Positions 2,514 through 31,253 of a DNA stretch of 64,000 nt are shown here, piece after piece; the first letter of the stretch is position 1, and the number at the start of each line of letters is the position of its first letter. A program made the position numbers and the translations under genes. This DNA comes from Klebsiella oxytoca (lineage in GTDB: Bacteria; Pseudomonadota; Gammaproteobacteria; Enterobacterales; Enterobacteriaceae), in NCBI RefSeq assembly GCF_009707385.1, contig NZ_CP046115.1, forward strand, positions 1,922,001 to 1,986,000, read 5' to 3'. The notes beneath the pieces were generated by a model. That model was given only the letters and a program-made list of their open reading frames with translations, had not been told where the DNA came from and ran no database searches.

Positions 2514-2541
2514 GGTAGGTGCTCGTTTCTCCTACCCTTTT
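2514..2541 (+). terminator. Probable terminator of the doxX gene
   Basis: GGTAGG and CCTACC arms separated by about 11 bases and followed by CTTTTTC, about 50 bases after the doxX stop. The stem is short, so confidence is moderate. It also marks the boundary with the AT-rich CRISPR leader that follows. Confidence 0.5.
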
Positions 2542-2544
2542 TCT

Positions 2545-2663
2545 GAGTGCTTTTTTAACGCATTGATTTATTAATGTTTATTGGCTGGTTTTGAAAAAAG
2601 GGTAAAACGGTTTTTTATTGATTATTGCATTATTAAACAATAAGGTAGGTGTGCCTGGCTGGA
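2545..2663 (+). promoter_or_regulatory. Type I-F CRISPR leader
   Basis: AT-rich, gene-free DNA immediately before the first CRISPR repeat. It contains an IHF consensus match at 2556-2568 (TAACGCATTGATT, fitting YAANNNNTTGATW). From 2618 to the repeat it resembles the leader before the lone repeat at 16250. The TTGATTA block is exactly 46 bp before the repeat in both, and both share a CAATAAGGTAGG / CAATATGGTAGG segment. IHF-assisted leader recognition is established for type I-F spacer integration; that this leader still works is inference. Confidence 0.78.
2556..2568 (-). promoter_or_regulatory. IHF consensus site in CRISPR leader
   Basis: TAACGCATTGATT matches the reverse complement of the IHF consensus WATCAANNNNTTR at every fixed position. 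It starts 108 bp before the first repeat. The equivalent site in the clpA-infA leader starts 109 bp before its repeat, and this conserved phasing supports a function in spacer integration. Confidence 0.7.
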
Positions 2664-2871
2664 GTTCACTGCCGTACAGGCAGCTTAGAAAGATCTGCTC
2701 AGTCAGATTGCGGGACACTTCACGTTCACTGCCGTACAGGCAGCTTAGAAAAAAAACGAACGCGACCAGGGGATGGAGCGTTTGTTCACTGCCGTACAGG
2801 CAGCTTAGAAAAGTTAACAGACAAGCGTCTAAGCCGGCTTCATGTTCATTGCCGAACAGACAGTTTAAAAC
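2664..2871 (+). CRISPR. Orphan type I-F CRISPR array, 4 repeats / 3 spacers
   Basis: Repeats of 28 bp lie at 2664-2691, 2724-2751, 2784-2811 and 2844-2871. The first three are identical and carry the CTGCC/GGCAG hairpin of the type I-F repeat that begins GTTCACTGCCGTACAGGCAG and ends CTTAGAAA. The fourth differs at six positions and is the degenerate leader-distal repeat. All three spacers (2692-2723, 2752-2783, 2812-2843) are exactly 32 bp, the usual I-F length. Orientation is set by the AT-rich leader at the 5' side and the degenerate repeat at the 3' side. No cas gene lies anywhere in the 64 kb window, so the array is orphan locally. Open reading frames across it are by-products of the repeat. 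Confidence 0.96.
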
Positions 2872-13745: not shown

Positions 13746-13775
13746 ATACAGGCAATAAACTTGGGGGAGGTGCCT

Positions 13776-16058
13776 ATGCTCAATCAAGAACTGGAACTCA
13801 GTTTAAACATGGCTTTCGCCAGAGCGCGCGAGCACCGTCATGAGTTCATGACCGTCGAGCACTTGTTGCTGGCGCTGCTTAGCAACCCTTCGGCCCGCGA
13901 AGCGCTTGAAGCGTGTTCAGTGGACCTGGTTGCGCTGCGTCAGGAACTCGAAGCCTTCATCGAACAGACCACACCCGTACTGCCTACAACGGAAGAAGAC
14001 CGCGATACTCAGCCAACGCTGAGCTTTCAGCGCGTGCTGCAACGTGCCGTTTTCCACGTCCAGTCTTCCGGCCGCAGTGAAGTCACCGGAGCCAACGTTC
14101 TGGTCGCGATTTTTAGCGAACAAGAATCGCAGGCGGCATACCTGCTGCGTAAACATGAAGTCAGTCGACTTGATGTCGTTAACTTCATCTCTCACGGTAC
14201 GCGTAAAGACGAGCCGAGCCAGTCTTCCGATAATAGCGGAAGCCAGCCTGGCAGCAGTGAAGAGCAAGCAGGCGGGGAGGATCGTATGGAAAACTTCACC
14301 ACCAACCTCAACCAGCTTGCCCGCGTAGGCGGAATCGATCCGCTGATCGGCCGCGAAAAAGAGCTGGAACGTGCTATTCAGGTTCTGTGCCGTCGCCGTA
14401 AAAATAACCCGCTGCTGGTGGGGGAATCTGGCGTCGGTAAAACCGCCATTGCCGAGGGTCTTGCCTGGCGTATTGTGCAGGGCGACGTGCCGGAAGTCAT
14501 GGCCGATTGCACTATTTATTCACTGGATATTGGTTCGTTGCTGGCAGGCACCAAATATCGCGGCGATTTTGAAAAACGTTTCAAAGCGTTGCTCAAGCAG
14601 CTGGAGCAGGATACCAACAGTATTCTGTTCATTGATGAAATTCATACTATCATCGGCGCTGGCGCCGCTTCCGGTGGGCAGGTTGATGCCGCTAACCTGA
14701 TTAAACCGCTGCTCTCCAGCGGTAAAATTCGGGTGATTGGTTCGACGACTTATCAGGAGTTCAGCAACATCTTTGAAAAAGATCGTGCCCTGGCCCGTCG
14801 TTTCCAGAAAATTGATATCACCGAACCTTCAGTAGAAGAGACGGTGCAGATTATCAACGGCCTTAAACCTAAGTACGAAGCGCACCACGACGTGCGTTAC
14901 ACCGCGAAAGCAGTACGTGCGGCGGTGGAGCTGGCGGTGAAATACATCAACGATCGTCATTTGCCGGATAAGGCGATTGACGTCATTGACGAAGCCGGAG
15001 CGCGTGCGCGCTTGATGCCGGTGAGCAAACGCAAGAAAACGGTTAACGTGGCGGATATTGAGTCCGTGGTGGCGAGGATTGCGCGTATTCCTGAGAAGAG
15101 CGTTTCCCGCAGCGATCGCGATACGCTGAAAAACCTCGGCGATCGCCTGAAAATGCTGGTCTTTGGCCAGGATAAGGCGATAGAGGCATTAACCGAAGCG
15201 ATCAAGATGGCGCGCGCCGGGCTGGGCCATGAGCACAAACCTGTGGGCTCTTTCCTGTTCGCCGGACCTACCGGGGTGGGTAAAACTGAGGTTACCGTGC
15301 AGCTGGCGAAGTCGCTTGGCATTGAGCTGCTGCGCTTTGATATGTCCGAATATATGGAACGTCATACCGTCAGCCGTTTAATCGGTGCGCCTCCGGGCTA
15401 CGTTGGTTTCGATCAGGGCGGGCTGCTGACCGATGCGGTTATCAAGCATCCGCACGCTGTGCTGCTGCTGGATGAAATTGAAAAAGCGCACCCGGACGTC
15501 TTTAACCTGTTGCTGCAGGTAATGGATAACGGGACGCTGACCGATAATAACGGCCGCAAAGCGGATTTCCGCAACGTGGTGCTGGTAATGACGACTAACG
15601 CCGGGGTGCGTGAAACCGAGCGTAAATCGATTGGCCTTATTCATCAGGACAACAGTCCGGATGCGATGGATGAGATCAAAAAGATCTTTACGCCGGAATT
15701 CCGTAACCGTCTCGATAACATTATCTGGTTCGATCACCTGTCTACGACGGTTATCCATCAGGTGGTGGATAAATTTATCGTCGAGCTGCAGGTCCAGCTG
15801 GATCAGAAAGGCGTGTCTTTGGAAGTTAGCCAGGAAGCTCGCGATTGGCTGGCAGAGAAAGGCTACGACCGGGCCATGGGCGCACGTCCGATGGCGAGGG
15901 TGATTCAGGATAACCTGAAAAAACCGCTGGCCAACGAGCTGCTGTTTGGTTCACTGGTTGACGGCGGTCAGGTTACCGTTGAGCTAGATAAAGAGAAAAA
16001 CGCGCTCACCTACGACTTCCAGAGCGCGCAGAAGCACAAGCCGGAAGCGGCACACTAA
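13776..16058 (+). CDS. clpA: ATP-dependent Clp protease ATP-binding subunit ClpA
   Basis: ClpA is the AAA+ unfoldase that feeds ClpP and works with ClpS on N-degron substrates. In 760 residues it shows the N-terminal Clp repeat domain (1-145), a linker, the D1 AAA module with Walker A GESGVGKT (about 216), the D2 module with Walker A GPTGVGKT (about 497), and the IGL loop (KSIGLIH, about 618) that docks on ClpP. The frame opens at 13761, but the ATG at 13776 follows GGGGGAGG and matches the E. coli start MLNQELEL. A strong terminator follows. Confidence 0.98.
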
Positions 16059-16076
16059 ATCGGTTGTGATAAATGC

Positions 16077-16106
16077 AAAAACCGGCCTCAGGGCCGGTTT
16101 TTTTAC
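16077..16106 (+). terminator. Terminator of clpSA
   Basis: ACCGGCC/GGCCGGT stem (16081-16087, 16092-16098) with a 4-base loop, an A-run before it and seven Ts after it. Confidence 0.92.
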
Positions 16107-16119
16107 GCCAGTGCTCTGA

Positions 16120-16249
16120 ACCCTTTTTTTTGCGCGGGATTAACTCATTGATTTTAAAAGAAGGTAATAACCGACGACAGATTAAGGTTAAAGAGGGGAT
16201 TTGTTGATTAATTTCAATAATAACAATATGGTAGGGTATAGTTCGTCCA
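16120..16249 (+). promoter_or_regulatory. Second type I-F CRISPR leader
   Basis: AT-rich DNA after the clpA terminator leads directly into a single type I-F repeat. It contains an IHF consensus match at 16141-16153 (TAACTCATTGATT), 109 bp before the repeat. The last 46 bp (from TTGATTA at 16204) are similar base for base to the leader at 2618-2663, including ACAATATGGTAGG versus ACAATAAGGTAGG. The clpA-infA interval is the known chromosomal site of type I-F loci in E. coli. Confidence 0.75.
16141..16153 (-). promoter_or_regulatory. IHF consensus site in second CRISPR leader
   Basis: TAACTCATTGATT matches YAANNNNTTGATW exactly and differs from the site in the first leader at one of the unspecified positions. 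Its distance to the repeat is within 1 bp of that in the first leader. Confidence 0.68.
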
Positions 16250-16277
16250 GTTCACTGCCGTACAGGCAGCTTAGAAA
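16250..16277 (+). CRISPR. Solitary type I-F CRISPR repeat (zero-spacer locus)
   Basis: A single 28-bp repeat is identical at every base to the three intact repeats of the array at 2664-2811. It stands alone: no second repeat, intact or degenerate, is visible at a 60-bp step or elsewhere before infA. With the leader before it, this has the form of either a spacerless array or the remnant left after a type I-F cas locus and its arrays were deleted by recombination between repeats. Confidence 0.9.
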
Positions 16278-16445
16278 CACCAGAAAGGGAAGTGTATATA
16301 GAGGCCGAATATTGTCGGCTTAAATAAGTTGCAGGGCGCTCATTTGAGTATCCTTTCACGCTAAGACAAGCCGAACATTGCTTTATAAGCACAGAGAAAC
16401 GGTCGTCAAAGCTAAAGAAGGAAAGGGCGAAAGAATAAAAGAAAT
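16278..16445. other. Gene-free remainder of the clpA-infA interval
   Basis: Downstream of the lone repeat there is a GCCGA/TCGGC hairpin (16304-16319) and a second GCCGAACATTG about 60 bp later. No coding sequence is convincing. The serine tRNA gene serW, which E. coli carries between clpA and infA, is not present: no acceptor, D or T-loop blocks of a class II tRNA are found on either strand. Confidence 0.5.
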
Positions 16446-16472
16446 GAAAAGACCGGGAATTATCCCGGCCTT
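16446..16472 (-). terminator. Terminator of infA
   Basis: On the minus strand GCCGGGATAATTCCCGGTC forms a GC-rich hairpin followed by TTTTCATTTCTTTT, about 30 bp after the infA stop. Confidence 0.85.
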
Positions 16473-16502
16473 CAGCATCTGGCGCTTTAAGCGCGAAAAC
16501 GA

Positions 16503-16721
<219 letters not shown>

Positions 16722-31092: not shown

Positions 31093-31107
31093 TATTCGGT
31101 AATTTTC

Positions 31108-31137
31108 TTAAAAGCGCCTGCGGGCGCTTTTTTTTTA
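31108..31137 (+). terminator. Terminator of serS
   Basis: AAAGCGCC/GGCGCTTT stem with a 4-base loop (31111-31130), followed by TTTTTT. Confidence 0.92.
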
Positions 31138-31145
31138 CTCCCTTC

Positions 31146-31159
31146 TTGATACCGGGCAA
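31146..31159 (+). promoter_or_regulatory. FNR box of dmsABC
   Basis: TTGATACCGGGCAA matches TTGATNNNNATCAA in the first half and at CAA of the second. It closely resembles the E. coli dms site as I remember it. It lies 131-144 bp before the dmsA ATG, consistent with the long dms leader and FNR-dependent anaerobic induction. Confidence 0.72.
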
Positions 31160-31210
31160 TAATCAGCTCTGTGAATACACAGATACTCACTTTGGATTAA
31201 CCAGCATAAA

Positions 31211-31253
31211 AATTAATAACGGTTAATTTCGCTATGTATTTTTATATATAGCG
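31211..31253 (+). promoter_or_regulatory. Inverted repeats in dmsA leader
   Basis: Two symmetric elements lie between the FNR box and dmsA: AATTAA-TAACGG-TTAATT (31211-31228) and CGCTAT...ATAGCG (31230-31253). Either could be an operator half-pair or leader-RNA structure; no regulator is assigned. Confidence 0.35.

Follow-up and report, generated by a model that had tools for sequence, protein, structure and literature searches.

Between clpA and infA in this Klebsiella oxytoca genome, a lone and perfect type I-F CRISPR repeat stands behind a leader. We interpret this feature, with a probability of roughly 85%, as the relic of a lost I-F CRISPR locus. The window, by which we mean the whole 64-kb stretch of DNA that was analysed, also holds a second I-F locus, a sister array without cas genes. 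The features of both are as follows, with gene names in the window assigned from translations:

2534 to 2603, plus strand: leader core of the sister array by motif match, with left arm (2534-2542), IHF site (2556-2568) and right arm (2595-2603) all exact.
2664 to 2871, plus strand: sister I-F array, an orphan flanked by a DoxX-like gene and hcr; it comprises three perfect repeats, three 32-nt spacers and a terminal repeat that is degenerate.
13761 to 16058, plus strand: clpA.
16120 to 16128, plus strand: left leader arm at position -130, with the inverted motif ACCCTTTTT intact.
16141 to 16153, minus strand: exact IHF consensus site WATCAANNNNTTR, at position -109, from a pattern scan.
16181 to 16189, plus strand: eroded right arm, ATTAAGGTT against the consensus AAAAAGGGT, three mismatches.
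16190 to 16249, plus strand: leader-proximal segment, in which sequence comparison finds TTAATTTCAATAATAACAATATG in common with a sister species (G003) at the same site.
16250 to 16277, plus strand: single perfect type I-F repeat (CRISPR-DR4), an exact I-F match and an Rfam match.
16278 to 16302, no strand assigned: about 25 unexplained bases 3' of the repeat, without matches, a possible spacer fragment.
16303 to 16343, minus strand: what is left of the 5' end of an R2K ATP-grasp gene, by comparison with G003; in G003, G006 and G007 the reading frame is open.
16503 to 16721, minus strand: infA.

The repeat matches the Rfam family CRISPR-DR4 with 50.1 bits, and 100 shuffles yielded no match at up to three mismatches. 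The whole genome, a single contig of 5,394,761 bases, contains four perfect I-F repeats and no further copy at up to three mismatches: the one at 16250-16277 and three within 2664-2811. In the sister array the perfect repeats occupy 2664-2691, 2724-2751 and 2784-2811, and the degenerate one, with six mismatches, occupies 2844-2871. The original prediction of a lone perfect repeat with its leader is thus confirmed for the clpA-infA interval, but the repeat is not the sole I-F element of the window. Of the hallmarks of a type I-F CRISPR locus, the interval has the 28-nt repeat; it has one repeat rather than two or more around a spacer, and no complete spacer. Searches for Cas1, Csy4 and Csy3 found none in this genome, while the positive controls returned Cas1 in 9 of 14 genomes and Csy4 and Csy3 each in one of the 14 (E. 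coli). What is present, a cas-less leader with a repeat remnant between clpA and infA, fits an orphan I-F relic of the kind found in E. coli. Unlike the E. coli interval, which includes the serW tRNA gene, the window contains no tRNA gene detectable by ARAGORN, including in the interval itself (16059-16502), and a consensus scan of 16040-16520 found no sigma-70-like promoter.

To read the leader, we compared it with 63 leaders of arrays that have at least two repeats (up to three mismatches each) and come from loci taken around cas genes, their activity being unproven. This set takes in two near-identical E. coli leaders, one leader by a cas6f remnant (L265) and one on a different contig of G016 (L184); it leaves out six orphan leaders, two secondary repeat clusters (L232_+11779 and L180_+4618), single-repeat clusters, arrays with fewer than 160 bases upstream and one array with an N. 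Three elements are common to the 63 leaders: a left arm, an IHF site and a right arm. In all 63, ACCCTTTTT is best matched at -132 to -129, with at most one mismatch in 57, and the IHF site, on either strand, lies at -112 to -96 and is exact in 52. The best match to AAAAAGGGT lies at -72 to -68, with no mismatch in 39 leaders, one in 17, two in six and three in one. A preprint (PMC12259127) describes conserved I-F inverted repeat motifs that are contacted by Cas2 while IHF folds the leader, and we infer that the arms seen here are these motifs.

Against this plan, the clpA-infA leader is intact on one side and apparently eroded on the other. Its left arm is unaltered, and this is where the conserved leader begins; the original prediction had started the leader at 16141 and so fell short of its full extent, whereas the IHF site that it reported is borne out exactly. 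The pattern used to call that site is what we take to be the IHF consensus. Across the window, 48 sites match it with at most one mismatch and only two match exactly, one preceding the first repeat of each I-F locus, by 109 and 108 bases. The right arm, in register, has three mismatches, compared with none to two in 62 of the 63 comparison leaders, and shuffling the local sequence 5,000 times equalled or bettered it in 751 cases, so it can hardly be told from chance. A nearer match, AAAGAGGGG, with two mismatches, is found at -60, some 10 bases off register; since the same letters occur at -70 in a cas-linked leader (L182_+12001), the right arm may have shifted position instead of being lost. 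The doxX-hcr leaders of this genome (G000) and of G003 have both arms and the IHF site exact. At clpA-infA, the leader of G003 has, in register, six left-arm and three right-arm mismatches, and that of G013 has four and four.

The comparison of sister strains that had been suggested was replaced by a comparison of sister species in a genus sample of 20 genomes, one per species, so a cas-bearing strain of the same species could still exist. In 14 of the 20 the clpA-infA interval is short (113-251 bp) and free of repeats at up to six mismatches. Beside the single repeat of G000, the interval holds a leader, a truncated repeat and the R2K gene in G003, two degenerate repeats around one spacer in G013, and the R2K ATP-grasp gene without a repeat in G006 and G007; it is clean in G002, G011 and G015. 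These eight genomes form one clade in quick trees of clpA (21 rows; SH-aLRT 99) and of aat-cydC (20 rows, G017 left out; SH-aLRT 100), and all the leader, repeat and R2K remnants found at clpA-infA fall within it. In two sister species, G003 and G013, the remains of leader and repeat are further decayed than here, and full I-F loci were found elsewhere in the family. The gene in the interval of three clade species (L123:692-1498, L126 and L127) belongs by Pfam to the R2K-clade ATP-grasp genes, and G015 has an R2K relative elsewhere in its genome. In G017 (L137) the interval is 7.7 kb long, with open frames that by eye resemble a chaperone-usher fimbrial operon. The long gaps of G003, G006, G007 and G017 were considered as arrays or cas loci and rejected, as on reading they hold the R2K gene or the fimbrial-like operon.

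Across the genus, Csy4 occurs in 4 of 20 genomes (G004, G009, G016 and G018) and Csy3 in 3 of 20 (G004, G016 and G018); none of these genes with a known location lies at clpA-infA, and neither was found in any of the eight clade species. At doxX-hcr, repeats at up to seven mismatches were found in G000, G003 and G007 among the 20 genomes; in G013 a left arm and an IHF site are still there by eye, and the other 16 genomes have no repeat there at that threshold.

In the wider family, the same interval presents I-F loci at several stages of completeness. Csy4 was found in 51 of 295 family genomes, and for 40 of these 51 we read stretches of up to 20 kb around it; clpA or infA lies within at least 6 of the 40 cas stretches, a count to be read with the caution that flanks may fall outside the stretch. 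Three loci (L227, L243 and L259) carry both flanks, Cas1, the N-terminal part of Cas2-3 and matches to five further I-F frames, which had been read from L252; a fourth (L255) is the same except that infA is not in its stretch. L252, at clpA-infA, is without Cas1 and the N-terminal part of Cas2-3, and L265 retains part of cas6f only. In two E. coli loci the I-F cas genes adjoin infA, one of them with insertion sequences in cas3, and K-12 has in this interval a cas-less mini-array of one perfect repeat, one spacer and one degenerate repeat. G059 and L265 have a leader and one imperfect repeat at clpA-infA, and I-F repeats also lie between the two genes in Enterobacter sichuanensis (L008), with no match to the tested cas proteins. 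In G059 (L143, near 5155), the 3' end of clpA is partly duplicated behind the imperfect repeat.

The site is therefore where E. coli I-F cas operons reside, as had been predicted: the E. coli loci place them there, as do passages of PMC8924505 and PMC2886076. Passages of PMC8924505 and PMC12736100 set E. coli I-F arrays between clpA and infA, and PMC12736100 reports that 48% of its strains have a single repeat region at this site, which we take to mean an array rather than one repeat. PMC2886076 also describes relic arrays, and its methods allow a CRISPR with one single repeat. The window itself is not from E. coli. A blast of the whole interval against 5,426 E. coli genomes matched 19, in the repeat and its edges only, with the largest E. 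coli record match covering at most 10% of the interval, and these matches are not a count of E. coli loci.

The history of the locus can be approached through its divergence and its 3' border. Leader alignments are gap-rich, and all leader identities were computed with gaps left out. Between G000 and G003 the clpA-infA leaders are 74.8% alike (95 of 127 aligned positions) and the doxX-hcr leaders 80.2% (105 of 131), compared with 78.4% (297 of 379) at the four-fold sites of clpA and 59.4% (189 of 318) at those of cydC, so that the clpA-infA leaders have diverged to roughly the degree of clpA four-fold sites. Within a genome, the clpA-infA and doxX-hcr leaders are 72.6% alike in G000 (124 aligned) and 80.9% alike in G003 (115 aligned). 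Under neutral change, the chance that a 28-mer stays untouched along a single lineage after the G003 split would be about 0.03 at the clpA rate, 0.0004 at the cydC rate and 0.015-0.04 at the leaders' own rates. Perfect repeats in such diverged surroundings imply either array activity after the G003 split or selection, and activity is probably the cause because the leader arm and the sister-species copies decay. The proposal that the locus was retained without decay therefore applies to the perfect repeat, but not to the leader, with its three right-arm mismatches and a divergence close to that of clpA four-fold sites.

At the 3' border, the repeat is followed by about 25 bases that occur at no other place in the 20 genus genomes at up to three mismatches, and then by the start of the R2K gene, the rest of which is missing. 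The left border of this remnant (16303) is approximate, with blast similarity to G003 restarting at 16309, and its reading frame runs from ATG to TAA over 16320-16343, with a stop after seven codons. No terminal degenerate repeat is present. Because the border runs into the deleted R2K gene, an ordinary deletion fits better than a clean repeat-repeat collapse. The collapse invoked by the original prediction is thus not the full story, and repeat-repeat loss of spacers may have preceded the deletion.

In our model, the ancestor of the clade would have carried I-F arrays at both clpA-infA and doxX-hcr, as the remnants in several species suggest. The cas genes would have been lost, a loss whose time and place we infer. 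The spacers at clpA-infA would have gone as well, and a deletion would then, presumably in this order, have removed the array tail and nearly all of the R2K ATP-grasp gene. The observed junction leaves the leader with a single repeat, followed by about 25 stray bases and the opening codons of the R2K gene. The repeat itself probably owes its intactness to array activity later than the G003 split, since an untouched 28-mer would be uncommon under neutral change. Today the locus most likely does nothing. It would become relevant only upon re-entry of matching I-F Cas1 and Cas2/3, in which case a spacer might be added at the leader-repeat junction, perhaps less readily given that one leader arm is eroded.

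That a cas-CRISPR locus was deleted here, as the original prediction offered in one of its readings, is supported by relatives with full loci, partial deletions and mini-arrays, the K-12 mini-array among them, and by two sister species with more decayed remains. The relic reading draws as well on the lack of the sought cas proteins in the genome and of Csy4 and Csy3 in the clade, on the G003, G013, G006 and G007 remnants beside the clean intervals of G002, G011 and G015, and on the eroded right arm and the junction inside the R2K remnant. Counting against it are the perfect repeat, the three further perfect repeats of the sister array, the exact and in-register left arm and IHF site, and the possibly displaced right arm. 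Much the same evidence, four perfect repeats in diverged surroundings and exact elements in register, would favour a landing site whose leader and repeat, a minimal substrate for a first spacer, are maintained because I-F cas genes re-enter by transfer. Full I-F loci do stand at clpA-infA elsewhere in the family; a passage of PMC9602844 reports that a leader with a single repeat gains spacers in an Acinetobacter baumannii strain having I-F cas genes, and PMC2886076 proposes an integration hotspot formed by arrays that outlive their cas genes. We nonetheless consider a maintained landing site unlikely: the right arm is eroded, the leader and repeat of G003 have decayed at the same site, three of the eight clade species have lost the locus cleanly, and leader divergence is near that of clpA four-fold sites. 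It is likewise doubtful that the cas-free I-F leader-repeat sites of this lineage are kept working by repeated visits of cas modules, which would make a zero-spacer locus a standing receptor and not debris, a view compatible with perfect repeats in diverged surroundings and with the fully intact doxX-hcr leader.

Two further possibilities involve the sister array. The clpA-infA leader and repeat could have been copied from it instead of remaining from a resident locus, as the same repeat and leader plan at both loci of the window and the closer likeness of the two G003 leaders to each other than of the G000 and G003 clpA-infA leaders might suggest. We regard this as very improbable, as the low identity of the two G000 leaders speaks against recent copying in this genome, and the same-site remnants of G003 and G013 indicate a locus older than the present species. 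Least probable is a paired array that targets incoming I-F cas genes, a role known for orphan arrays at clpA-infA in E. coli from passages of PMC8616872, citing Almendros 2016, and of PMC2886076. We compared seven stretches with 46 cas loci totalling 867,573 bases: the sister array's three spacers, the 32 bases that follow the clpA-infA repeat, and a single spacer from each of G003, G007 and G013. They reached 21-22 of 32 matching positions, the same as 20 shuffles of each, whereas the K-12 spacer, as a positive control, reached 30 of 32 behind CC in the same loci. The sister-array spacers thus match no I-F cas gene in this set, and the clpA-infA locus has no complete spacer with which to do so. 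Queried against phages and plasmids, all three spacers of the sister array and the 32-base stretch behind the repeat gave either nothing or weak partial matches (E 0.7-0.9, less than 80% query coverage), none of them above chance level, and an exact search of viral contigs with the first 20-22 bases of the same spacers and post-repeat stretch gave none.

A relic at clpA-infA is most closely matched by the cas-less CRISPR3/CRISPR4 of E. coli (CRISPR4.1/4.2), with the same repeat, the same interval and very few repeats. Unlike those, the present locus has no complete spacer, terminal degenerate repeat or serW, has an R2K remnant downstream and one eroded arm, and is accompanied by a sister array in which no anti-cas spacer was found. 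It is also like the engineered I-F acceptor of A. baumannii (aCRISPR), a leader with one repeat, for which PMC9602844 demonstrates spacer acceptance; that strain has I-F cas genes, unlike the present genome, in which none were found. PMC9602844 also describes an A-rich leader portion as critical for the acceptor, with some leader change tolerated. Relics of this sort at clpA-infA are already known from E. coli, and the present locus extends the record of I-F loci lost at this site beyond E. coli, with several stages of the loss visible in sister species and other genera. The genome carries both a leader with an eroded arm and an intact leader, a pair that could be used to probe the role of the right arm in spacer uptake. 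Elsewhere in the window, 31102-31236 on the minus strand matches the Rfam family of the enterobacterial sRNA STnc130 with 81.8 bits.
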